A stretch of DNA of 64,000 bases, from assembly GCF_009900765.1 (NCBI RefSeq), contig NZ_JAAABL010000007.1, positions 62,001 through 126,000 of the forward strand, in the 5' to 3' direction. The notes under the pieces are model-generated. The model was not told where the DNA came from. It saw only the letters and a list, made by a program, of their open reading frames with translations, and did not search any database. This document shows positions 9,751 through 23,047 of this stretch, piece by piece. A program made the translations under genes and the position numbers. Source of the stretch: Rhodovarius lipocyclicus (GTDB lineage Bacteria; Pseudomonadota; Alphaproteobacteria; Acetobacterales; Acetobacteraceae). Position 1 is the stretch's first letter. Each line of letters begins with the position of its first letter.

Positions 9751-9930
9751 TCAGGCCGCCGCGCGATGCGCGTCGAGCAGGCGGCGGGCCTGGAAGCTGC
9801 GGTCGCCGAATTCGAACTCGGCCATCATGATGCGGCGCGCGAGGCGGATCGCGGCCACATCCTCGGTCATGCCCATGCCGCCATGGCACTGGATGGCGGC
9901 CTGCGCGATGAAGCGCCCGGCCTCGTGCAG
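9751..9930 (-). pseudogene. Acyl-CoA dehydrogenase, C-terminal remnant
   Basis: Only about 60 C-terminal residues remain. They include HEAGRFIAQAAIQCHGGMGMTED, where the (Q)xHGGxGMT stretch is the hallmark of acyl-CoA dehydrogenases near the FAD and active site; it is followed by the usual C-terminal helix (IRLARRIMMAEFEFGD). Upstream of about 9930 the frame no longer resembles the family, and the plus strand instead encodes a solute-binding-protein tail. The 5' four-fifths of the gene is missing, so it cannot make a working enzyme. The remnant is 12 bases upstream of the NDP-forming synthetase. Confidence 0.85.
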
Positions 9931-10380
9931 GCGGTGGGGCAGATGTGGACGCGCATCGGCGTGCGCACCATGGTGGAGGCCCAGCCCTATGCCACCTTCA
10001 TCGGCCGCGCCAGCCGGCGGGAGGCGCCCGCCGCCCTGCTGACCTGGGGCAATTCCACCGGCGAGGTCTCGGTGCTGCTGAATTCCGTGCTGCGCACGCC
10101 CGACCGCGACGCGGGGCACGGCCCGGCCAACCGCCTGCTCTATTCCAACGCGGAGATGGACCGCCAGCTCGCGGCCGCCCAGACCGAGATGGATGACGCG
10201 CGGCGCGAGGACCTGCTGCGCCGCGCCTCCCTGACCGCGCTGGAGGATGGGATGATCGTGCCGCTGTACCTGCAGAACGCCATCTGGGCGATGCGCGCGA
10301 ATCTGACCTATGAGGCGCGGATGGACGAGCGCAACGACCCGGCCGCCGTCCGCCTCATCGCGGCGCGACCAGCCCGTTGA
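9928..10380 (+). pseudogene. ABC substrate-binding protein (family 5), C-terminal remnant
   Basis: About 150 residues that match the C-terminal lobe of peptide/nickel-type (SBP_bac_5) binding proteins: QMWTRIGVRTMVEAQPYATF, then the tail with DxxxRxDLLRRAS, MIVPLYLQNAIWAMR and a final basic stretch. No signal peptide, no N-terminal lobe and no credible start exist, because the frame runs leftward into the antisense of an acyl-CoA dehydrogenase. The 3' end overlaps the convergent TetR gene by 26 bases, which is likely the ancestral arrangement. The fragment is a relic of a gene whose 5' part was deleted. Confidence 0.82.
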
Positions 10381-10975
10381 AGATCATGTCGCAATAGGCG
10401 TCGGCGATCTGCGGCGGCGCCATGCCCTTCTCGGGCTTGTACCAGCGGTGCATCCAGTTGAGGGATGAGAGGATGAGCCGCCCGGTCAGCGGCACATCCA
10501 ACGGGCGGAACTCGCCGGCCTCGATCGCTTCCTCGATCAGGGTGCGGATCAGCCCCTCATAGCGGTCGCGCCACATCATGCGCTCCTTCTGGCGGCGCTG
10601 CTCCGGGTCGTTCCAGAAGGCGGTGGTGGAGGCGATCCAGGCCCAGCGGTAGCGCTGGAAATACTCGCCCGTCGCGGTCATGAAGACGCGCACGCGCTCC
10701 GAAGGGCGGGCATCCGCGGGCAGGCGGTCGAACACGAAGTGGTACAGCTCCCGTGTGGAGCCCAGCGTCACCTTGGCGAAGATCTCATCCTTGTCGGTGA
10801 AGTGATGATAGAGCAGCGACTTCGAGATGCCACAGGCCTCGGAAATGTCGCGCATCGAGGTGCCGTCATAGCCATTGGTGGCGAACAGGCGCGCCGCTTC
10901 CGACAGGATCTGCAGCATGCGCTCGGCCCCATCCCCGCTCTCGGGGCTGGCTATCCTGGTGGCCGGACGCGCCAT
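10355..10975 (-). CDS. TetR/AcrR family transcriptional regulator
   Basis: A 206-residue repressor-type regulator. The N-terminal helix-turn-helix region reads AARLFATNGYDGTSMRDISEACGISKSLLYHHFTDK (residues about 27-62; only key parts matter: GYDGTS, ISKSLLYHHF). The C-terminal ligand-binding half includes a tryptophan-rich helix (RYRWAWIASTTAFW). ATG at 10975 follows a purine-rich GGGGGAATGGC; extra upstream residues lack homology. A palindrome resembling TetR operators lies about 50 bases upstream of the start (11027-11040), suggesting autoregulation and perhaps control of neighbouring CoA-ester genes. Confidence 0.9.
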   Translation of the reverse strand: MARPATRIASPESGDGAERMLQILSEAARLFATNGYDGTSMRDISEACGISKSLLYHHFTDKDEIFAKVTLGSTRELYHFVFDRLPADARPSERVRVFMTATGEYFQRYRWAWIASTTAFWNDPEQRRQKERMMWRDRYEGLIRTLIEEAIEAGEFRPLDVPLTGRLILSSLNWMHRWYKPEKGMAPPQIADAYCDMIFNGLVAPR

Positions 10976-11026
10976 GCCATTCCCCCGCCTTCCGCCGGCA
11001 ACCGGCGGTTCGCCTGACACATGCGC

Positions 11027-11040
11027 TGACCGACCGTTCA
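11027..11040. promoter_or_regulatory. Putative TetR operator
   Basis: The sequence TGACCGACCGTTCA forms an imperfect inverted repeat (TGACCGA / CCGTTCA, five of seven pairs) of the kind bound by TetR regulators. It sits between the SMP-30 gene end and the TetR start at 10975, where the TetR promoter must lie. Confidence 0.5.
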
Positions 11041-11069
11041 GTGCAAGCCCGCGGGCGGCGCCCCGGGCA

Positions 11070-12041
11070 TCACCCGCCCAGCGCCCCCTGCGCCTCCACA
11101 TACAGCGCATAGACGGACTGGCTGGCCGTCATGAACAGCCGGTTCCGCTTGCGCCCGCCAAAGCACAGGTTGGCGCAGCGTTCCGGCAACAGGATGCGGC
11201 CTAGCAACGTGCCGTCCGGCGCGAAGACGGCCACGCCATCCTGCCCCGGCCCGCCGGAGAAACCCGCCCACACATTGCCCTCGGTGTCGCAGCGGATGCC
11301 GTCGGCATGGCCCGCCCCGTCGAAGAACAGCCGGCCGTTGCGCGGCATGCCGTCCACCATGTCGTACACCCGGGTCAGCCGGTTCGCGGCCGGCGTGTCC
11401 ACCACATACAGCCGCGATTCATCGGGCGAGAAGCACAGCCCGTTCGGGCGCTCCATGTCGTCGATGGCGATGGTCAGGTCGCGGGTTTCGGGGTCCAGCC
11501 GATAGACGCGGAAGGGCATTTCCTTCGGCGCCTTGTCGCCCAGGTAATGGCCGCGGATGCCCGCCCCATTGTCGCTGAACCAGATGCTGCCGTCGGATTT
11601 CACCACCACATCGTTCGGCCCGGTCAGCCGCGTGCCCTGGAAGTGGGAGGCCAGGACGGTGACCGTGCCGTCATGCTCCGTGCGGGTCAGGGTGCGGCTG
11701 CCGAGCTCGGCGCTGATCAGCCGGCCCTGGCGGTCGCGGGTGTTGCCGTCGATGTTGCCGCAGGGCTGGCGCAAGGGCGCCACCTGGCCCGTCACCTCAT
11801 CCCAGCGCAGCAGCGCGTCGTTCGGGATGTCGGTGAACAGCAGGCCGCGGGTGTCGCCGAAATACACCGGCCCCTCGGTGAAGCGGAAGCCGGTGGCGAT
11901 GCGCTCGATGGCGGCCAGCGGCGTGATCAGCGCCTGGAAGCGCGGGTCCAGCACGATCACGTCCGGGTCCGGATAGCGCACGGGCGGCGCGTTGGCTTCC
12001 CAGCGGCCGGGAGCGGCGGGTGGGGTGGGGTGCGATGCCAT
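11070..12041 (-). CDS. SMP-30/gluconolactonase/LRE family lactonase
   Basis: A 323-residue six-bladed beta-propeller lactonase. Recognisable parts are the metal-ligand glutamate in FTEGPVYF near residue 54, the NDVVVKSDGSIWFSD segment near 145-160 with the conserved asparagine, the NGLCFSPDE segment near 200 and the aspartate in GHADGIRCDTEGNVW near 245. Family members hydrolyse sugar lactones or other lactones in a Ca/Zn-dependent way. There is no signal peptide, so it is cytoplasmic. It lies 70 bases downstream of a D-2-hydroxyacid dehydrogenase on the same strand; together they suggest handling of an acid or lactone product. Confidence 0.9.
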   Translation of the reverse strand: MASHPTPPAAPGRWEANAPPVRYPDPDVIVLDPRFQALITPLAAIERIATGFRFTEGPVYFGDTRGLLFTDIPNDALLRWDEVTGQVAPLRQPCGNIDGNTRDRQGRLISAELGSRTLTRTEHDGTVTVLASHFQGTRLTGPNDVVVKSDGSIWFSDNGAGIRGHYLGDKAPKEMPFRVYRLDPETRDLTIAIDDMERPNGLCFSPDESRLYVVDTPAANRLTRVYDMVDGMPRNGRLFFDGAGHADGIRCDTEGNVWAGFSGGPGQDGVAVFAPDGTLLGRILLPERCANLCFGGRKRNRLFMTASQSVYALYVEAQGALGG

Positions 12042-13235: not shown

Positions 13236-14567
13236 TTACGCCGGGGCGTAGCGGTTGCGCGGCCTGGCCAGGCCCAGATGGTCGCGCAGGGTGGGGCCGC
13301 TGTATTCGGTGCGGAACATGCCCCGCGCCCGCAGCTCCGGCAGCACCAGCTCCACGAACTCATCCAGGCCATGCGGCAGCACCGGCGGGCACAGGTTGAA
13401 GCCGTCGGCAGCGCCGCCCTCCACCCAGGCCTGCATGTCGTCCACGATATCCTTCGGCGTGCCGACCACGCAGCGCCCGCCGAAGCCCGGGGTGATGGTC
13501 TGGTACAGCTGGCGGATGGTCAGGTTCTTCTGCCGCGCCAGGGCCAGCATGCGCCCCGCGGAGCTTTTGATGGTGGCGTTCGGCGGTTCGGGCACCGGCC
13601 CGTCGATGTCGAAACCGCTGAGGTCGCCCAGCGTCTGGTACAGGTAGGAAAGCCCGAGCTCCGGCGCCACCAGCGCGTTCAGCTCATCGTATTTCGCCTG
13701 GGCCTCCGCCCGGGTGCGGCCGATGAAGAGGGTGACGCCCGGCATCACCTTCAGCGCCTCCCGCTCGCGCCCATACTTGGCCAGCCGGCTTTTCAGATCG
13801 TCGTAATAGGCCTTGGCCGAGGCGATGTCGAAATGGGAGGAATAGACCACATCGGCGCTTTCGGCCGCGATCTCCATGCCCTGCTGGGCCGCCCCCGCCT
13901 GCACCAGCACCGGCCGGCCCTGGGGCGTGCGCTTGATGGTCAGCGGGCCCTCGACCTGGAAGTGCTTTCCCTTGTGGAACAGCGTGTGCATCTTCGACTG
14001 GTCGAACATGATGCCGCTCTCCTTGTCGAAGACCGGCGCATCTTCCTCCCAGCTATCCCACAGCCCCTTCACCACGGAGACGAACTCCGCCGCGCGCTCA
14101 TAGCGCGTGTCGTAGTCCATGTGCTTTTCGCGGTTGAAGTTGCGGGCCTCCACCTCGGACCAGGAGGTGACGATGTTCCACCCCGCGCGCCCGCCGCTGA
14201 GGTGGTCGAGCGAGGCGAATTTGCGCGCGATATGATAGGGCTCGTTGTAGGTGGTGCTGGCGGTGGAGACGAGGCCGATGCGCGACGTCACCGAGGACAG
14301 CGCCGAGAGCAGCGTCAGCGGCTCCAGCTCGAACACCTGGTGGGAGCGGCGCAGCGCCCCCGGGGGCTCGTCGCGCGTGCGCAGGCCGATGCCGTCGGCC
14401 AGGAACACCATGTCGAGCTTGGCGCGCTCGGCGGTCTCGGCGACACGGCGGTAGTGGCTCAGCTTGGAGGCCGCGTCCGGGTCCGCCGAGGGATGCCGCC
14501 AGGCAGCGGCGTGGTAACCCAGATAGCGCATCGAAAGGCCGAGGCTGATCTGCTTCGGGCTGGTCAT
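13236..14567 (-). CDS. LLM class flavin-dependent monooxygenase (NtaA/SnaA/DszA type)
   Basis: A 443-residue two-component flavin monooxygenase of the nitrilotriacetate/dibenzothiophene-sulfone group, which uses reduced flavin and oxygen to cleave C-N or C-S bonds. Typical segments are FLADGIGL near residue 53, ASTTYNEPYHIARKFA near 105, GWNIVTSWSE near 132, and VQAG near 230. No flavin reductase is present nearby. It is the last gene after an ABC peptide-type transporter operon, 55 bases from the binding-protein gene, and is very like the gene at 21689-23047. The substrate is probably something imported by that transporter. Confidence 0.92.
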   Translation of the reverse strand: MTSPKQISLGLSMRYLGYHAAAWRHPSADPDAASKLSHYRRVAETAERAKLDMVFLADGIGLRTRDEPPGALRRSHQVFELEPLTLLSALSSVTSRIGLVSTASTTYNEPYHIARKFASLDHLSGGRAGWNIVTSWSEVEARNFNREKHMDYDTRYERAAEFVSVVKGLWDSWEEDAPVFDKESGIMFDQSKMHTLFHKGKHFQVEGPLTIKRTPQGRPVLVQAGAAQQGMEIAAESADVVYSSHFDIASAKAYYDDLKSRLAKYGREREALKVMPGVTLFIGRTRAEAQAKYDELNALVAPELGLSYLYQTLGDLSGFDIDGPVPEPPNATIKSSAGRMLALARQKNLTIRQLYQTITPGFGGRCVVGTPKDIVDDMQAWVEGGAADGFNLCPPVLPHGLDEFVELVLPELRARGMFRTEYSGPTLRDHLGLARPRNRYAPA

Positions 14568-14622: not shown

Positions 14623-16353
14623 TCAGTACTGGTAGCCGGCGCGTTGCAGGTATTCGCGCGCCTTGTCGAGGTCATAGGCGATGGGCTTCAGCAGATCGTG
14701 GTCGTACTGCTCCGAGGTGAAGGGCAGCGGCACCGTGCCTTCCTCGCCATAGCCGCCCGCGATCTCCTTGACGATCTGCTCGCGCGGCATGGCATGGCTG
14801 ATGGCCTTGCGGATATAGGCCGCGGCCTCCGCCGCGCGGGCGGGGTCCTGCCGGCCCAGCGGCGTATCGACGCCGGTGCCGAAGACCGGGTGGCGCAGGT
14901 TGTAGCAGATGTGCTGCCACTTGAAGCTGTCGAAGCTCTGCACCTTGCCCCAGCTCGGCTCGATGGTGCTGGCCAGGGGGCCGATGTCGTACATCGGGTC
15001 ATGCGCGTCGATGGCGCCCGAGCGCAGGGCCGACAGCACGGAATCCGTGCCCTGGATGTTGACCACGTAGAAGGTCTTCACATTGCCGGTGTGCGGCTTC
15101 CAGTAATTCTCGTTGCGCACGAATTTGTAGGCGCGGCGCTGCGGGTCATAGCCCTGCGCGATCCAGGGCCCGGTGCCCACGCCGCCCAGCGAGGTATAGG
15201 TCCGCCCGCCCGACACGCGCACCTGGAACCGCCCGTTCCAGGTCGAGGCCACATGGCCGCGCATGGAGGCCGGCGCGATCCCCTCATAGGCATGCTTGGG
15301 CATGATCGCCTGCGCGCCCAGCAACCAGTCGAGGAACAGCATGTCGTATTTCGGCAGTTCCACCGTGATCTCGTACTTGCCGGTCACGCGATAGCTCTCG
15401 GTGCCGCCCAGCACCTGCTCGGCGGTGGCCTGGATCGGCGCGCCATAGGCCTTGTTCAGGATGGTGTCCCAGGTGAACTTCACATCCTCGGCGGTGAATT
15501 CCTCGCCCGAATGCCAGCGCACATTGGGGCGCAGGGTGATCACCCACTTCTTGCCGTCGTCGGACATGGTGTGGCTGAGCGCGAGGCCGGGCTGCAGGCG
15601 CTTGTTCTCCCAGCTCTCATACTCGTACAGCCGGTTGTAGACCGGGCCGAAGATGTTGCTGTCCGAATAACCGTTGGAATACATCGGGATCAGCGACATG
15701 GGCGGCGCCCAGGAGGCGAAGGCGGCCGTCGCGTCATTGCCCGCGCCCTCGATGGTCCAGCTCTCGGGGTTGGGGAAGAACACCGGGTTGAAGGTGGTGG
15801 TGTCGAAGCCCCGCAGCTTCGGGTTCACCGCGATCACGTCCTTCGGATAGAACAGGATCGTCATCGGCTCTGTATCGTACCAGCGCTTGGCGAAGTCGCG
15901 GTAGGCGGCCTGGCGCCCGGCGGGGTCGATGGTGCTGCCCAGGCGGTCCAGTGCGTCGTCGATCTGCGGGTCGTTCACGTAATAGAAGTTCTGGCCGGAG
16001 GGCGGGGCCAGCCGGCTGTGGAACAGCGAGTTCGGCGTGGGCGTGATGGCGTTGTAGTAGTAGCGCTCCAGATAGGCGTCCCAGCCGCCCTCGGCATGCG
16101 GCTTGCCGTCGCCGCGCGACCGGCGGGGGGAGATGACGGTGAAGGGCACGAAGCTCGACACCACGTCGATGCCGATGCGCGACATCTGCTGGGCCGCCAG
16201 CGTGCCCCAGATCATCCGCGCCGGCTGGTTGTTCGGGATCATCAGGTACAGGCGGAAGAAGGGCGGCGCCGCCTGGGCCGGGCCGACCGCCGCGGTGACG
16301 AGGGATGCGGCCGAGGCCTGCAACATGGCGCGGCGCTTTGTGGTCATGCGCAT
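14623..16353 (-). CDS. ABC substrate-binding protein, family 5, with swapped (circularly permuted) halves
   Basis: A 576-residue exported binding protein. Residues 1-28 form a signal peptide (KRRAMLQASAASL ... AQA). Residues 30-205 match what is normally the C-terminal lobe of SBP_bac_5 proteins: QQMSRIGIDV, YYYNAITPTPNS, YYVNDPQIDDALD, RDFAKRWYDTEPM, and the usual tail NPVFFPNPESWTIEG. Residues 210-576 match what is normally the N-terminal part: GPVYNRLYEY, LRPNVRWHSGEEFTAEDV (276-291), VGTGPW (392-397), ENYW, then RKAISHAMPREQIV and finally KAREYLQRAGYQY, which in normal relatives leads into the segment that here follows the signal peptide. Total length is normal, as for a permutation. It follows the two ATPase genes in the operon. 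Confidence 0.88.
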   Translation of the reverse strand: MRMTTKRRAMLQASAASLVTAAVGPAQAAPPFFRLYLMIPNNQPARMIWGTLAAQQMSRIGIDVVSSFVPFTVISPRRSRGDGKPHAEGGWDAYLERYYYNAITPTPNSLFHSRLAPPSGQNFYYVNDPQIDDALDRLGSTIDPAGRQAAYRDFAKRWYDTEPMTILFYPKDVIAVNPKLRGFDTTTFNPVFFPNPESWTIEGAGNDATAAFASWAPPMSLIPMYSNGYSDSNIFGPVYNRLYEYESWENKRLQPGLALSHTMSDDGKKWVITLRPNVRWHSGEEFTAEDVKFTWDTILNKAYGAPIQATAEQVLGGTESYRVTGKYEITVELPKYDMLFLDWLLGAQAIMPKHAYEGIAPASMRGHVASTWNGRFQVRVSGGRTYTSLGGVGTGPWIAQGYDPQRRAYKFVRNENYWKPHTGNVKTFYVVNIQGTDSVLSALRSGAIDAHDPMYDIGPLASTIEPSWGKVQSFDSFKWQHICYNLRHPVFGTGVDTPLGRQDPARAAEAAAYIRKAISHAMPREQIVKEIAGGYGEEGTVPLPFTSEQYDHDLLKPIAYDLDKAREYLQRAGYQY

Positions 16354-16366
16354 GCGGTGTCTCCGT

Positions 16367-17350
16367 TCAAAGGGGGTTGTGGCAAGCGGCGCGATGCGGC
16401 GCGGAAGGCGGCATCAGCAGGGGTTCGCTCTGCGCGCACACCGGCAGGGCGGCCGCGCAGCGCGGGTGGAAGGGGCAGCCCGTGGGGCGGCGCATGGCGC
16501 TCGGCACCTCCCCCTGCAGCACGATGCGGTCCTGCGCGGCGCCAGGGCTCGGCACCGGGATCGCGCTGAGCAGGGCCCGCGTGTAGTGGTGCCGGGGGCG
16601 GGTGAAGATGTCGTCCACCGGCCCGATCTCGACCAGCTTGCCCAGATACATCACCGCCACATGGGTGCTGATGTAGCGGACCGAGCTGAGGTCGTGGGAG
16701 ATGTAGAGATAGGCGAGGCCCAGCCTGTCCTGCAGCTCCGCCAGCAGGTTCAGGATCTGCGCGCGCACCGAGACATCGAGCGAAGACACCGGCTCATCCA
16801 GGATCAGCAGGCGGGGCTCGATGGCCAGCGCGCGCGCGATGCCCACGCGCTGGCGCTGGCCGCCGCTGAATTCGTGCGGATAGCGCCAGGCATGATGAGG
16901 TTCGAGGCCCACCATCCGCAGCAACTCGCCGATGCGGGCGTCCCATGTCTCCGGCGCCTCGGGCCGGTGCACGCGCAGCGGTTCCTTCAGCGTCTCCCCG
17001 ATCGTCCAGCGCGGGTTCAGCGACAGGTACGGGTCCTGGAACACGTATTGCAGGGAACGGCGGATCGCGAGAATGCGCGCCCGGTCCCCGCCGCGGAACA
17101 CCGGCACGATGTCCTCCCCCTGGAAGCGCACCGCGCCGTCCGAGGGCTCGACCAGGTTCAGGATGGAGCGCGCGGTGGTGGTCTTGCCGCAGCCGGATTC
17201 GCCCACCAGGCCCAGCGTCTCGCCCTCGGCCACGCTGAAGGAGACGCCATCGACCGCGCGGATCTCCGTCTGCTTGCTGGCGCGGAACAGGCGGCGTTCC
17301 AGGACAGGGTAGTATTTCGACAGCCCGTCGACTTCCAGCAGCGCGCTCAT
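16367..17350 (-). CDS. ABC transporter ATP-binding protein (DppF/OppF-like)
   Basis: A 327-residue ATPase of a peptide/opine/nickel-type importer. Walker A is [12 protein letters not shown] near residue 50, the signature is [15 protein letters not shown] near 156, Walker B is [14 protein letters not shown] near 178, and the C-terminal oligopeptide-ABC extension contains the cysteine cluster [17 protein letters not shown] at 17350 overlaps the stop of the DppD-like gene (ATGA). It energises import through the two permeases of the same operon. The gene is followed after 13 bases by the binding protein. Confidence 0.94.
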
Positions 17351-18390
17351 GCCGCGATCCCCTCGCTGCCGCGCTTCAGGCAACTGACGGTGTGGCCCGG
17401 GCCGACCGGGGTTTCGAGCGGCAGCAGCCGGCGGCACTCGGGGGCTGCCTCCGGGCAGCGGTCATGGAAGCGGCAGCCCGGGGGCGGGTTCAGCAGGTTG
17501 GGCGGGCGGCCGGCGATGGTCGGCAGCGGCCGGCGCGCGGCCCCGGTATAGGAATGGTCGATGCGCGGCATGCTTTCCAGCAGCGCGCGGGTATAGGGGT
17601 GTCGCGGCGCGTTGAAGATGGTCGCGGCATCCGCGCTCTCGCACACCCGGCCGGCGTACATCACGGTGATCCGGCTCGCCATGCGCGCCACCACCCCCAT
17701 GTCGTGGGTGACCAGCACCATGGACATGCGGAAACGCTTCTGCAGGTCCGCCAGCAGTTCCAGGATCTGCGCCTGGATGGTCACGTCCAGCGCCGTCGTC
17801 GGCTCATCCGCCAGCACCAGCGACGGGTTGCACAGCAGGGCCCGCGCGATGCCCACGCGCTGCTTCATGCCGCCCGACAGCTCATGCGGGAATTGCCGCA
17901 GCCGGGCGCCGGGGTCGGAGATGCCGACCAGCCCCAGCAGTTCCACGACGCGCGCATCGGCCTCGGCCCGGCTCGCCTTCTCGTGCCACATCAGGATCTC
18001 GCCCAGCTGCGCGCCGATGGAATAGATCGGGTTCAGCGAGGTGGCGGGGTTCTGGAAGATCATGGCGATGCGGCGCCCGCGCAGGGCGGCCATCTCGGCG
18101 GGTTTCTTGGCCAGCAGGTCCTGGCCTTCGAACAGGATCTGGCCGCCGGCCATGCGCGCGGGCGGCGGCACCAGCCGCAGCGTGGCCAGGCTGGAGACGG
18201 TCTTGCCCGAGCCGGACTCCCCCACGATGCCCAGCGTCTCGGCCGGGTTCACGTGATAGTCCACACCATCCACCGCGCGCACCACACCCTCACGCGTGTG
18301 GAAATGCACACGCAGGTCGCGCACCTGCAGCAGGGGGGCGGGGGCGGCCACCACCGGCGGGCTACTGGCGGGTGCGAGGGTTGAAAGCAT
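17347..18390 (-). CDS. ABC transporter ATP-binding protein (DppD/OppD-like)
   Basis: A 347-residue ATPase partner of the DppF-like subunit. Walker A is GESGSGKTVSSL near residue 57, the signature is [15 protein letters not shown] near 168, Walker B is LVLADEPTTALDVT near 188, and the C-terminal cysteine-rich extension CRFHDRCPEAAPEC is typical of oligopeptide ABC ATPases. Its 5' end overlaps the 3' end of the permease gene by 29 bases, and its stop overlaps the next ATPase start, so the operon is translationally tight. Confidence 0.94.
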   Translation of the reverse strand: MLSTLAPASSPPVVAAPAPLLQVRDLRVHFHTREGVVRAVDGVDYHVNPAETLGIVGESGSGKTVSSLATLRLVPPPARMAGGQILFEGQDLLAKKPAEMAALRGRRIAMIFQNPATSLNPIYSIGAQLGEILMWHEKASRAEADARVVELLGLVGISDPGARLRQFPHELSGGMKQRVGIARALLCNPSLVLADEPTTALDVTIQAQILELLADLQKRFRMSMVLVTHDMGVVARMASRITVMYAGRVCESADAATIFNAPRHPYTRALLESMPRIDHSYTGAARRPLPTIAGRPPNLLNPPPGCRFHDRCPEAAPECRRLLPLETPVGPGHTVSCLKRGSEGIAA

Positions 18391-19294
18391 CGGTCAGTCC
18401 ATCCGCCAGCAGGTTGAACCCAAGCACCGTCACGAACAGCGCGGCCCCGGGCGACAGCACGGCCCAGGGGGCCACTTTCAGCGCCTCGTAGTTGAAATAC
18501 AGCGACTGGCCCCAGGAGACGGCGCGGGGGTCGCCGAAGCCCAGGAAGCTGACCATCGTCTCGGCCAGGATCGCCCCGCCGATGCCGAGTGCCACCAGCA
18601 CGATCAGCGGCGGCATGGCGTTGGGCAGGATGTGGCGCAGCAGGATGTCCCGGCGGGAGGAACCGATGCAGTGCGCGGCCTCCACGAATTCGGAGTTGCG
18701 CAGGCGCAGGAATTCCGCGCGGGCCATGCGGGCGATGGGCGGCCATTCGAAGCAGCCCAGCAGCACGATGATGGTCATCAGGTTGAGGTTGGGGATGTCC
18801 TCCAGCCAGGTGCCCACCACCACGATGCCGAACAGCCGCACCACGGCCAGGATCACGACGAAGACGGGGATGACCATGAAGAATTCGGCGAAGCGCATCA
18901 GCAGCTCATCCACCATGCCGCCGGCATAGCCCGCGATGCCGCCGATGATGACGCCGATGACGGAGGCGATGATCATGGCCCCCAGCCCGACCGCGAGCGC
19001 CGTGCGCGCGCCGTAGATCATGCGGGTGAACACGTCGTAGCCGTTGCGGTCGGTGCCCAGCCAATGCAGGGCGCTGGGCGCGCGCCGGGCGGCGCCGCGC
19101 AGCATGGCCGAGGTGTCGTCCGGCGCGAAGGGCGCGGCGAAGGGAGCCAGCAGCGCCACCAGCACCACCAGCGTGACCATGGCCAGCCCGATCAGTCCCG
19201 CGCGGTTGCGCCGGAACCGGTACCAGGATTGCCGCCAGATGCCCGGGGCGCGCTGCCGGGGGGCCGCGATGGCCGGAAGGGTCGCGTCGCTCAT
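18362..19294 (-). CDS. ABC transporter permease (DppC-like)
   Basis: A 310-residue inner-membrane permease. It has an N-terminal cytoplasmic segment with the OppC-type RFRRNRAGLIGL, then about six hydrophobic helices; the EAA loop is EAAHCIGSSRRDILLRHILPN, which docks the ATPases. ATG at 19294 lies 5 bases after the upstream permease stop; longer frames upstream are an overlap with that gene. Together with the DppB-like subunit it forms the transmembrane channel. Confidence 0.93.
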   Translation of the reverse strand: MSDATLPAIAAPRQRAPGIWRQSWYRFRRNRAGLIGLAMVTLVVLVALLAPFAAPFAPDDTSAMLRGAARRAPSALHWLGTDRNGYDVFTRMIYGARTALAVGLGAMIIASVIGVIIGGIAGYAGGMVDELLMRFAEFFMVIPVFVVILAVVRLFGIVVVGTWLEDIPNLNLMTIIVLLGCFEWPPIARMARAEFLRLRNSEFVEAAHCIGSSRRDILLRHILPNAMPPLIVLVALGIGGAILAETMVSFLGFGDPRAVSWGQSLYFNYEALKVAPWAVLSPGAALFVTVLGFNLLADGLTDAFNPRTRQ

Positions 19295-19299
19295 GTGCT

Positions 19300-20268
19300 T
19301 CAGCCCAGCCTGATACGCGGGTCGATCGCCACATAGGCGATGTCGGTCAGCAGGGTCGCCGTGACCAGCATGACGGTGATGACCATCGTGGCCCCCATGA
19401 TGAGCGGGTAGTCGAGCTGCTGGATCGCCATGATGTACAGCGCGCCGAGGCCCGGCCAAGTGAACACGGTTTCCGTCACCGGCGCGGTGCCCAGCATCAG
19501 CCCGAACAGGATGCCGAGGTAGGTGAGCACCGGGATGAAGGCATTGCGCAGGGCATGGCCGAACACCACCCGGCGTTCCGGCAGGCCGGAGGCGCGGGCA
19601 GCGGTGATGAAATCCTGCCGCAGCACGTCCACCAGCGAGGATCGCAGCAGCAGCGTCAGCGTCGCGCAGTTGAAGAACACCAGCATGCCGACCGGCAGCA
19701 CCATGTGCCACAGCGCGTCCGCCACATCGCTGCCCCACAGCGGGTTGCGGGTGGAATAGGCGCCATAGCTGGGCAGGATACCGAGCGAATAGGAGAAGAT
19801 CAGGATCAGGACGATGCCGAGCAGGAAGCCCGGCATGGAATGCCCGACCATGGCCGAGGCGATGACGCCGAAATCCACCCGGCTGTACTGCCGCGTGGCC
19901 GCCAGCACCGAGATCAGCACCGACACCAGCAGCGCGATCAGGATGGCCGGCACCTGGATCTTCAGCGTCTCCAGCCCATAGGTCACGAGCATCTCGGAGA
20001 CGGGCAGGTTGTAGATGATGGAGGTGCCGAAATCGAGGCGCAGCAGCGCCCAGATCCAGGTGAAGTACCTGTCCGTCACGCTGCCGTTCAGGCCGTAGTA
20101 TTCGGTCACGGCCTGGATCATTTCCTCGGTGATGCCGGGCCGTTCGGCCAGCAGCACCTCCACCGGGTTGCCGATGGCGTTGATCATCGCGAACAGGATG
20201 ACGCTGACGCCGAGGATGAGGCAGAGCGAGAAGATCAGGCGTCTCGCGATATAGCGGGCGGTCCCCAT
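19300..20268 (-). CDS. ABC transporter permease (DppB-like)
   Basis: A 322-residue inner-membrane permease and the first gene of the operon. The N-terminus YIARRLIFSLCLILGVSV is the usual first helix of DppB proteins, and the EAA loop reads AARASGLPERRVVFGHALRN near residue 222. Helices continue to the typical end DIAYVAIDPRIRLG. ATG at 20268 follows GGGAGAAACC. It diverges from a LysR gene across a 308-base control region, so that regulator may control this operon. Confidence 0.93.
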   Translation of the reverse strand: MGTARYIARRLIFSLCLILGVSVILFAMINAIGNPVEVLLAERPGITEEMIQAVTEYYGLNGSVTDRYFTWIWALLRLDFGTSIIYNLPVSEMLVTYGLETLKIQVPAILIALLVSVLISVLAATRQYSRVDFGVIASAMVGHSMPGFLLGIVLILIFSYSLGILPSYGAYSTRNPLWGSDVADALWHMVLPVGMLVFFNCATLTLLLRSSLVDVLRQDFITAARASGLPERRVVFGHALRNAFIPVLTYLGILFGLMLGTAPVTETVFTWPGLGALYIMAIQQLDYPLIMGATMVITVMLVTATLLTDIAYVAIDPRIRLG

Positions 20269-20576: not shown

Positions 20577-21536
20577 ATGCTGTTTTCACCCGTCTTCATG
20601 TCATTATATTATGAAGCGATGGCCCGCCGAATCACCCAGCGCCAGATCGAGGCTTTCCGCGGCGTGATGCTGCGCGGCTCGATCTCCGGCGCCGCCGAGA
20701 TGCTGGGCCTGACCCAGCCCGCCGTCAGCCGCCTGATGCGCGACCTGCAGGAGGTGCTGAAGCTGCGCCTGTTCGAGCCGCGCGGCACCGGCATCGTGCC
20801 CAACGCGGAGGCCAACCTGCTGTATGAGGAGGTCCAGCGCAGTTTCCTGGGCCTGGACCGCATCGAGCACACGGCCCAGGAGATCAAGCGCGCCCGGCGC
20901 GGCAACCTGCGCATCATCGCCATGGCGGGGCCGGCCCACGGCATCCTGCCGCGGCTGGTCGCGCGCTTCCTCGACGAACACCCAGACACCTTCGTGGCCC
21001 TGCACAACCACATCGCGCCCACGGTGCTGGAGCGCGTGGCGATGCGGCAATACGACCTGGGCATCGCCTATGCGCCGCTCGACTATCCGGGGGTGGATAT
21101 CGAGGTGCTGCCACAGCTGGACGCGGTGTGCGTGCTGCCGGCCAACCACCCGCTGGCGGCCAAGCGCGTGATCCGGCCGGAGGATCTGCACGAGCAGAAG
21201 CTGGTGAACCACGGCGCCGGCAGCCACATCACGGTGAAGCTGGATGCGATGCTGCGCCTGGCCGGCGCCGTGGCGCGGGAGGTGGCGGAATCCACCTCCG
21301 CCGAGGCGATGTGCCGGCTGGTCGGCCAGGGTGTGGGCATCGCCCTGCTGGACCCCTTCACCGTCACGGCGGTGCGCGATCCCGCCATCGCGCTGCGCCG
21401 TTTCGAGCCGCGCATCGACTACCCGGCGACCCTGGCCTTTCCCTCCGGCCAGCCGCGTTCGCGCGCGGTGGAGGAATTCACCGCCATGCTGCGGGCGGAG
21501 GCAACGATGGAACGGCTGCTGCCCGGGCTGACCTAG
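20577..21536 (+). CDS. LysR family transcriptional regulator
   Basis: A 319-residue regulator. The N-terminal winged helix-turn-helix reads RQIEAFRGVMLRGSISGAAEMLGLTQPAVSRLMRDLQ (key parts SISGAAEML and TQPAVSRLM), followed by the linker and a periplasmic-binding-like effector domain (PRLVARFLDEHPDTFVAL onwards). ATG at 20577 has the better ribosome site (GAGGGGGG); an ATG at 20619 would start directly at MARRITQRQ, which is closer to typical LysR length, so the start is not certain. It diverges from the ABC operon and precedes two flavin monooxygenases, and probably controls one or both. Confidence 0.92.
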   Translation: MLFSPVFMSLYYEAMARRITQRQIEAFRGVMLRGSISGAAEMLGLTQPAVSRLMRDLQEVLKLRLFEPRGTGIVPNAEANLLYEEVQRSFLGLDRIEHTAQEIKRARRGNLRIIAMAGPAHGILPRLVARFLDEHPDTFVALHNHIAPTVLERVAMRQYDLGIAYAPLDYPGVDIEVLPQLDAVCVLPANHPLAAKRVIRPEDLHEQKLVNHGAGSHITVKLDAMLRLAGAVAREVAESTSAEAMCRLVGQGVGIALLDPFTVTAVRDPAIALRRFEPRIDYPATLAFPSGQPRSRAVEEFTAMLRAEATMERLLPGLT

Positions 21537-21688: not shown

Positions 21689-23047
21689 ATGGCTCGGCAA
21701 GGAATGATGAAGCTCGGCATGTCGATGCGCGGGCTCGGCTACCACCCCGCCGCCTGGCGGCACCCAGATGTGCCCTCGGACGGCACGCTGCGCTTCGAGC
21801 ATTACGCGCACAACGCGAAGATGGCCGAACAGGGCCTGTTCGACATGATCTTCTTCGCCGACGGCATCGGCCTGCGCGAACGCGATGAGCCGCGCGGCTC
21901 GCTGGCGCGCTCGGGCTATGAGCTGGTGGAGATGGAGCCGCTGACGCTGCTGCCGGCGCTGTCGGTGCTGACGAAGCACATCGGCCTGGTGACCACGGCC
22001 AGCACCACCTACAACGAGCCCTATCACATCGCCCGCAAATTCGCGACGCTGGACCTGATCAGCGGCGGGCGCGCGGGGTGGAACATCGTCACCTCCTGGT
22101 CCGAGGCGGAAGCCAAGAATTTTTCGCGCGAGGAGCACCTCGAATACGACCTGCGCTACGAACGCGCAGCCGAATTCGTCGAGGTGGTGAAGGGGCTGTG
22201 GGATTGCTGGGAACCCGACGCCTTCGTCTACGACAAGCAGAGCGGCCTGTTCTACGACGAAAGCCGCATGCATCTGCTGAACCATCGGGGCAAGCACTTC
22301 CAGGTGCGCGGGCCACTGAACGTGGCGGGCATGCCGCAGGGCCGGCCCATCCTGGTGCAGGCCGGTGCCTCCGAACCCGGGCGCGAGATCGCGGCCGCCA
22401 CCGCCGATGTGGTCTATGCGGCGGCCGATTCCGTCAGCGCCGCCAAGGCCTATTACGACGACGTGAAGGGCCGCATGGCCAAGTATGGCCGCGACTGGGA
22501 TGAGCTGAAGATCATGCCCGGCGTGCGCACCATCGTGGGCGCCACCCGGGCCGAGGCCCAGGCCAAGTTCGACCGGCTGCAGGAACTGACGGACCCGCTG
22601 GTGGGCCTCGCCCGCGTCTATGCGGCCCTCGGCGACCTGTCGGGCTTCGACATCGACGGCCCGGTGCCCGAACCTCAGCGCGAGGCCCAGGTGAGGAGTG
22701 CCACCGAGCGCGTGATGAAGCGCGCCCGCGACGGCAACCTGACCATCCGCCAGCTGTACCAGCAGATCGTGGGCGGCGGCTTCTACCTGATCGGCACCGC
22801 CAGCGACATCGTGGACGGCATGCAGGAATGGTACGAGGCCGAGGCCTGCGACGGCTTCAACGTGCTGCCGCCCTATCTGCCCGGCTGCTGCGACGATTTC
22901 GTGGAGCACATCACCCCGGAGCTTCAGCGGCGCGGCCTGTTCCGCAAGGCTTACGAGGGCGCTACGCTGCGCGAGAATCTGGGGCTGAAGACGCCCGTGA
23001 ACCGCTGGGCGGCCGAACGCGCCGCCCGGTCAGCCGCCGCGGAGTAA
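21689..23047 (+). CDS. LLM class flavin-dependent monooxygenase (NtaA/SnaA/DszA type)
   Basis: A 452-residue flavin monooxygenase using FMNH2 and oxygen to attack C-N or C-S bonds. Motifs: FFADGIGL near residue 55, ASTTYNEPYHIARKFA near 107, GWNIVTSWSE near 134, VQAGASEPGREIAA near 226. The sequence is close to the gene at 13236-14567, so the two are recent paralogues on either side of the ABC operon. ATG at 21689 was chosen because GAGG precedes it at fair distance. The stop is 5 bases before the TTG start of the next monooxygenase. Confidence 0.92.
   Translation: MARQGMMKLGMSMRGLGYHPAAWRHPDVPSDGTLRFEHYAHNAKMAEQGLFDMIFFADGIGLRERDEPRGSLARSGYELVEMEPLTLLPALSVLTKHIGLVTTASTTYNEPYHIARKFATLDLISGGRAGWNIVTSWSEAEAKNFSREEHLEYDLRYERAAEFVEVVKGLWDCWEPDAFVYDKQSGLFYDESRMHLLNHRGKHFQVRGPLNVAGMPQGRPILVQAGASEPGREIAAATADVVYAAADSVSAAKAYYDDVKGRMAKYGRDWDELKIMPGVRTIVGATRAEAQAKFDRLQELTDPLVGLARVYAALGDLSGFDIDGPVPEPQREAQVRSATERVMKRARDGNLTIRQLYQQIVGGGFYLIGTASDIVDGMQEWYEAEACDGFNVLPPYLPGCCDDFVEHITPELQRRGLFRKAYEGATLRENLGLKTPVNRWAAERAARSAAAE

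Follow-up and report, generated by a model that had tools for sequence, protein, structure and literature searches.

A family-5 (cluster C) substrate-binding protein with swapped segment order: a probable natural circular permutant encoded in a Dpp-type importer operon

The substrate-binding protein of a Dpp/Opp-type ABC importer encoded in the window (the whole stretch of 64,000 nucleotides of DNA that was analysed) very probably has a family-5 (cluster C) fold that was circularly permuted in nature. Among the transport proteins of prokaryotes, binding proteins of family 5 are some of the most common. In the protein described here, the segment with which canonical members end comes behind the export signal and is followed by the N-terminal two thirds of the canonical chain.

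Segment order of the window protein

The proposal of a circular permutation was made in an earlier note on this DNA. The open reading frame, its coordinates and strand, and the peptides quoted from it were all found as that note describes them. The gene and the segments of its product are as follows.

14623..16353, minus strand: putative circularly permuted family-5 (SBP_bac_5) substrate-binding protein, 576 aa, ATG to stop
16267..16353, minus strand: N-terminal export signal, residues 1-29 (TTKRRAMLQ...AQA), read by eye
15787..16236, minus strand: residues 40-189, which correspond to the C-terminal segment of canonical members (canonical model 368-514 and profile-profile match)
15721..15786, minus strand: residues 190-211, the putative new junction, situated between the two matches, at which the ancestral C-terminal part runs into the ancestral N-terminal one
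14629..15720, minus strand: residues 212-575, which correspond to the first two thirds of the canonical chain and end in the KAREYLQRAGY helix (profile matches)

The window protein matches the Pfam model PF00496 (SBP_bac_5) with 190.6 bits, compared with a gathering score of 32.4, and the same model is matched by 21/21 orthologues at E<=0.001. On these matches the protein is classed as a member of family 5, cluster C, of the DppA/OppA/NikA type. Its export signal is one that we take, from the motif, to be of the twin-arginine (Tat-like) type. An RR-x-hydrophobic pattern was present in 33/41 permuted versus 19/76 canonical proteins, in a crude regular-expression count run on residues 1-90 of the longest ORF, with putative starts and with close relatives kept in.

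The order of the segments was analysed with a canonical model, a profile of 524 positions built from 22 canonical family-5 proteins. Residues 40-189 match model positions 368-514 (44.1 bits, domain E 1e-14) and residues 212-575 match positions 44-358 (189.1 bits, E 1.1e-58), while a third stretch, residues 3-30 at the signal peptide, is noise (-1.2 bits, E 0.53). When the protein was rotated, a single match to positions 44-514 with 247.7 bits was obtained, as compared with 189.1 bits for the best single stretch of the unrotated protein. Rotation by script at residue 200, 205 or 210 gave in each case one match, from position 44, 47 or 50 to 514, of ~247 bits. The reversal of segments described in the earlier note was thereby reproduced, and its suggestion to use PF00496 in both orders led to the same picture: the best stretch covers positions 2-279 of 368 in the protein as found, and one stretch covers 2-353 of 368 in the rotated protein. 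The full-sequence score rose little on rotation, from 236.0 to 248.1 bits with the canonical model and from 190.6 to 203.3 with PF00496, because HMMER already sums the separate pieces.

The N-terminal segment alone stays under the Pfam cut-off (15.4 bits, E 0.01). In profile-profile comparisons the same segment alone matched columns 377-525 of the 552 canonical columns (probability 96%, E 2.2e-9), and residues 214-575 matched columns 58-374 (E 2.3e-44). A profile of 11 permuted proteins was aligned with canonical PDB chains in two pieces of swapped order in the 5 alignments shown; in B. subtilis AppA (1xoc), profile positions 218-555 correspond to chain residues 21-345 and positions 38-190 to chain residues 358-503.

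The reversed order is confirmed far beyond chance. Judged by these tests, almost the entire canonical chain is present once, with its order alone altered. As the canonical N-to-C segment order of PF00496 is reversed in the window protein, the latter was therefore filed as a permuted variant of SBP_bac_5. Homologues of both orders exist and rotation yields one colinear match, the combination by which a permutant is recognised. In the junction, Trp199 is invariant in all of the permuted proteins of alignment A2 (11/11).

Relatives of both orders and origin of the permuted form

In the first 40 genomes searched, a colinear copy was detected in the window genome and in 3/39 others, at 95, 67 and 60% identity. 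Genome contigs were also scanned, and of the 21 loci obtained 20 are colinear relatives at 59-95% identity, their hosts being Acetobacteraceae and relatives, Reyranella, Enhydrobacter, Bosea and a few MAGs; the remaining locus (Planococcus) has the canonical order. The two-piece order test was passed by 19/20 colinear loci, the exception being L036, which fails because its N-terminal piece is too weak. The closely similar L037 passes, with an N-terminal piece of 10.9 bits. The permuted gene is also borne by plasmids of Salipiger and Neorhizobium, and an orthologue was found in 12/299 genomes of the window's family, an even sample in which the window genome is counted.

The hits are thus not limited to one genome, an outcome that the earlier note had named as speaking against its proposal. 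A second such outcome, two partial genes joined by the assembly, is ruled out by the orthologues. An assembly error, or the chance joining of two broken genes, has in its favour the odd segment order itself and nothing further, whereas the same order recurs in 20 contigs at 59-95% identity, in the two plasmids and in the 12/299 family genomes, the frame runs without a stop, and the gene is interior to a 134 kb contig. Because the orthologues share the order, the reading as an assembly join or a pseudogene was rejected, its probability being practically negligible. The swapped order is a genuine natural rearrangement, and the natural circular permutation put forward in the earlier note is supported by same-order relatives in many independent assemblies and by the Pfam comparison in both orders.

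A MAG labelled Desulfobacterales (L034; CP070697.1, ~10001-11692) carries a permuted binding protein that is 66% identical. Relatives of DppBC are absent nearby, and a run of unknown bases lies just upstream of the gene; this locus possibly reflects horizontal transfer, or a binning or assembly error.

Another family-5 match of the window genome, L114, the one put through the order test, is canonical. In the window itself, positions 9922-10380 on the plus strand encode an orphan fragment that corresponds to the last third of a family-5 binding protein of canonical type (model 380-515, 68.6 bits), and the canonical model matched nothing else upstream in the same frame. The abutting stretch on the minus strand resembles what we take to be the end of an acyl-CoA dehydrogenase. 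The fragment is probably a deletion remnant.

The same order and the same breakpoint were also observed in divergent relatives (21-24% identity) from other Alphaproteobacteria and from haloarchaea, to which a plasmid search gave weak yet colinear matches. Fourteen plasmid loci, picked from the hits mostly for colinear cover of the query, were fetched: 13 are permuted, including 6 haloarchaeal proteins, all permuted, and 1 (Cytobacillus, matched in two pieces) is canonical. In the class search, 7/7 fetched loci with full-length hits were permuted. Overall, the order test classed 46 ORF rows as permuted (41 distinct genes after removal of 5 second copies), 78 as canonical and 6 as neither, the last group including contig-cut ORFs, a fragment and L036. 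Over the 46 permuted rows, the N-side match starts at model positions 354-388 and the C-side match ends at 357-369. The window clade and the distant group are colinear over window residues 3-576 (E 3.4e-50).

A profile of the distant permuted homologues (A4) matched 36/299 family genomes at E<=1e-80, counted by profile span: 32 matches span from profile position <=52 to >=552 and 4 are partial, and the order test covered L015 (same gene as the first match). In the class sample, where <=7 candidates were scored, A4 gave a full-length colinear match in 7/190 genomes and one more that is cut at a contig end. In a phylum-wide A2 search of 299 genomes, which scored <=4 candidates per genome and gives no basis for a prevalence figure, a colinear match was seen, among the matches listed, only in the window genome. 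From these comparisons, the window protein is one member of a broad permuted subfamily that reaches the haloarchaea. The neighbours of the distant permuted genes differ (hydantoinase/oxoprolinase, M28 peptidase, CoA transferase and creatininase genes), and the permuted topology therefore does not seem to be tied to one substrate. M28 peptidase genes lie near L044, L077 and L078, and hydantoinase/oxoprolinase genes near L044 and L077, which suggests another substrate class for that permuted group.

We also considered that the permuted order might be the usual one for family 5, another outcome named in the earlier note. This was rejected, as the order test counted 56 canonical ORFs before the class-search loci were added and 78 afterwards.

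For the tree analysis, both orders were placed in one column frame, and unrooted trees of 78 and 93 rows were built, leaving out the 6 ORFs classed as neither, the 5 second copies, 2 short ORFs and near-duplicates (10 permuted in the 78-row tree; 12 permuted and 12 canonical in the 93-row tree). The permuted and canonical labels change 2 times in each whole-frame tree, as against shuffled means of 20.8 and 24.8. Part A alone (model 1-360) gave one permuted clade, with 1 change, and part B alone (164 columns) gave 3 changes. A tree in which all permuted rows are held as one clade was not rejected (p-AU 0.357). The exceptions are canonical proteins, L084 alone in the 78-row tree and L084 together with L113 in the 93-row tree, which share an unresolved fork with permuted ones. 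Given this fork and the 3 changes in part B, a strict single origin of the permuted proteins is favoured, not proven. L084 (2878-4677, Cytobacillus plasmid) and L113 (same class) may be the unpermuted proteins nearest to the permuted group.

Independent permutation events that hit one and the same loop several times, in bacteria and in archaea, would be in keeping with the divergence of the haloarchaeal rows and with the two canonical proteins in the fork, and new termini are generally tolerable in surface loops. They are nevertheless unlikely in view of the same breakpoint in the rows tested, the 2 label changes in the whole-frame trees and 1 on part A, the one clade that was not rejected, and the invariant junction Trp. 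Shuffling, in which partial genes of two different family-5 subfamilies were fused, could likewise account for a part B that is not cleanly one clade and that has other nearest canonical rows than part A. However, part B has just those 164 columns and long branches, part A is one clade, and the two parts tile the canonical model with almost no gap or overlap, as the permutation of one protein predicts; we regard such a fusion as very improbable. As to direction, the trees, being unrooted, are silent, which leaves room for a permuted ancestor from which the familiar order was derived. This is highly improbable, since permuted members occur in a minority of genomes (7 to 8/190 in the class; 12 and 36/299 in the family), family-5 matches overall are many per genome, and the PDB matches listed (60 of 114) are all canonical.

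We therefore return to a natural permutation of one canonical protein as the preferred reading. The ends of the ancestral protein would have been joined in lobe 1, while a new start and a new stop would have arisen in a loop of lobe 2; the route was probably a tandem duplication whose outer parts were subsequently lost.

Position of the cut and predicted fold

The cut corresponds to ~residue 340 of 1dpp (507 residues), two thirds along the canonical chain, and falls between residues 345 and 358 of 1xoc (520 residues). According to the available text on EppA (27-563), lobe 2 is domain III, continuous over 303-530, the N-terminus lies in domain I, and the C-terminus lies in domain IIb, which motion analysis groups with domain I (PMC7312458). 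For AliD (29-617), the available text gives lobe 2 as 297-582 and domain I as 29-63, 191-296 and 583-617 (PMC11192437). As described there, both chain ends of these cluster C structures are in lobe 1 (PMC7312458, PMC11192437). Because the published lobe 2 stretch covers the cut point, the lobe limits of EppA and AliD being carried over by relative position rather than by residue-level alignment, the cut would lie inside lobe 2 and not at the natural hinge, where the earlier note had placed the join point. The old termini would be joined in lobe 1, via residues ~190-211.

The full-length AlphaFold2 model, made with 21 sequences, has a pLDDT of 67.5 and a pTM of 0.70, with residues 522-562 under 50. 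In this model the cut is located between the C-terminal helix 562-571 (low confidence) and the first strand 33-40. Model residues ~201-576 superpose on canonical structures, from the N-terminus of the latter to ~345-375, for example with Z 19.9, rmsd 3.0 over 243 residues of 1xoc and with Z 18.5, rmsd 4.5 over 320 residues of 1dpp. In the 50 rows shown, Z for this part was 17.3-19.9, and the structural comparison was confined to residues ~203-574. The N-terminal segment folded alone gave a poor model (pLDDT 47.9). A Foldseek search against the PDB returned mainly family-5 proteins, mostly over ~245 columns, the sequential aligner being blind to permuted matches. None of the PDB matches listed (60 of 114) represents a solved structure of a permuted member; each is canonical and matched in one stretch. 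An assignment of range 203-480, seen in some VIA-align rows, to lobe 1 was dropped, as these rows omit the low-pLDDT stretches.

The earlier note had named a closed canonical fold as support for its proposal. With a moderate full-length model and a poor model of the N-terminal segment, we infer a closed fold from homology together with the model, so that the chain would close into a normal two-lobed Venus flytrap. In some haloarchaeal permuted proteins there are sequences that we take to be lipobox-like. The export signal, or the suggested lipid anchor of the haloarchaea, would then be attached to lobe 2.

Operon context and comparison with known systems

The genes around the binding protein gene are listed below.

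13236..14567, minus strand: NtaA/DmoA-family FMN-dependent (LLM class) monooxygenase (TIGR03860, 548.9 bits against a cut-off of 279.7)
16367..17437, minus strand: DppF-type ATPase
17347..18390, minus strand: DppD-type ATPase
18362..19294, minus strand: DppC-type permease (start inferred), with OppC_N and BPD_transp_1
19300..20268, minus strand: DppB-type permease
20619..21536, plus strand: divergent LysR-type regulator (start inferred)
21704-23047, plus strand: second NtaA/DmoA-family monooxygenase (TIGR03860, 536.8 bits)

Thus, dppB, dppC, dppD, dppF, the permuted binding protein gene and the gene of an NtaA/DmoA-family flavin monooxygenase form an operon-like row on the same strand, and the two features looked for in a member of this family, an export signal (read by eye) and an operon with Dpp-type permeases and ATPases, are both present. 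The LysR-type regulator gene and the second monooxygenase gene lie upstream on the opposite strand, divergent from the importer genes, and the LysR-type product, a putative regulator, likely acts on the operon. The arrangement is kept by relatives at 91-94% identity in L021, L023 and L039. On the strand of the operon, no promoter- or terminator-like site was found in a search that used the sigma-70 consensus only.

DppB and DppC at >=50% identity accompany the gene in 20/22 loci; L024 is cut by the contig end, and L034 is without them despite spare sequence. A monooxygenase relative lies directly downstream in 15/20 loci with enough sequence and is missing from that position in 5/20. In view of these five loci and of L034, the operon link is not universal. 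The downstream monooxygenase suggests uptake of a compound that is oxidised by the NtaA/DmoA-type family. The protein is predicted to be exported and then to bind a small organic substrate, which would be handed to the translocator DppBCDF, a product of this operon; ligand delivery to the translocator is described for E. coli DppABCDF in the available text of PMC12136057. Within the subfamily to which the window protein belongs, oxidation of the imported compound by the downstream NtaA/DmoA-type flavin monooxygenase would probably follow.

A working model for such a system is EppA-EmoA of Chelativorans BNC1, described in the available text of PMC7312458 as an EDTA uptake and oxidation system (PMC7312458). 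In both cases the operon encodes an FMNH2-dependent monooxygenase as well as a cluster C binding protein, and the parallel suggests that the window subfamily may import a compound oxidised by this monooxygenase family, as EppA/EmoA do. EppA itself is described as having the domains I, IIa, III and IIb in their usual order, and the likeness to the window system is one of description only.

The window protein shares with the known SBP_bac_5/cluster C proteins (DppA, OppA, AppA 1xoc, NikA) the Pfam family, the superposition of the model and an operon with DppB, C, D and F. It differs from them in that the segments are swapped, and also in that the mature N-terminus would enter lobe 2 instead of lobe 1, with the old termini fused. 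No report of a permuted family-5/cluster C binding protein was found in the open-access literature searched, subscription papers lying mostly outside its scope. In the available part of PMC2588589, SBP_bac_5 occurs only in a table and permutation only in a reference, and in the available text of PMC12667903, a large-scale permutation search, the words periplasmic, solute, ABC and transporter are absent. No matching NCBIfam model spans any of the six permuted proteins tested in one stretch, and annotated plasmid records label the permuted proteins "ABC transporter substrate-binding protein" or "peptide/nickel ABC transporter substrate-binding protein". A caution is therefore needed, as profile models split the permuted members. 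The permutation is a conserved one, without such marking in the annotations seen, and has a precedent in a sister class (cluster B).

With its many orthologues, this natural permutation offers a clean system for asking whether chain order or the lobe of attachment affects how a Venus flytrap is exported, folds, is anchored and docks. Permuted members are also natural designs for biosensors based on family-5 binding proteins.

The precedent is TpMglB-2 (Tp0684) of Treponema pallidum, a naturally circularly permuted glucose-binding protein that keeps the bilobed fold, with homologues of the same topology in other treponemes and in Gram-positive bacteria. According to the available text, its authors raised tethering as a possible reason for the permutation and proposed the designation "Type Ic/Cluster Bc" (PMC4990184). 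TpMglB-2 and the window protein are both natural permutants of ABC ligand-binding proteins with same-topology homologues. As described, the fold class differs: TpMglB-2 is a Type I/cluster B sugar binder with rearranged strands in the N lobe. It is conceivable, although we consider it rather doubtful, that one ancient permutation founded a cluster C class spread over Alphaproteobacteria and haloarchaea and over several importers, with the signal or lipid anchor on lobe 2, and that this class was selected for an altered presentation of the flytrap to the permease, in parallel to the cluster B proteins of treponemes. In terms of the naming proposed for TpMglB-2, the window protein would be the cluster C counterpart of "Cluster Bc".
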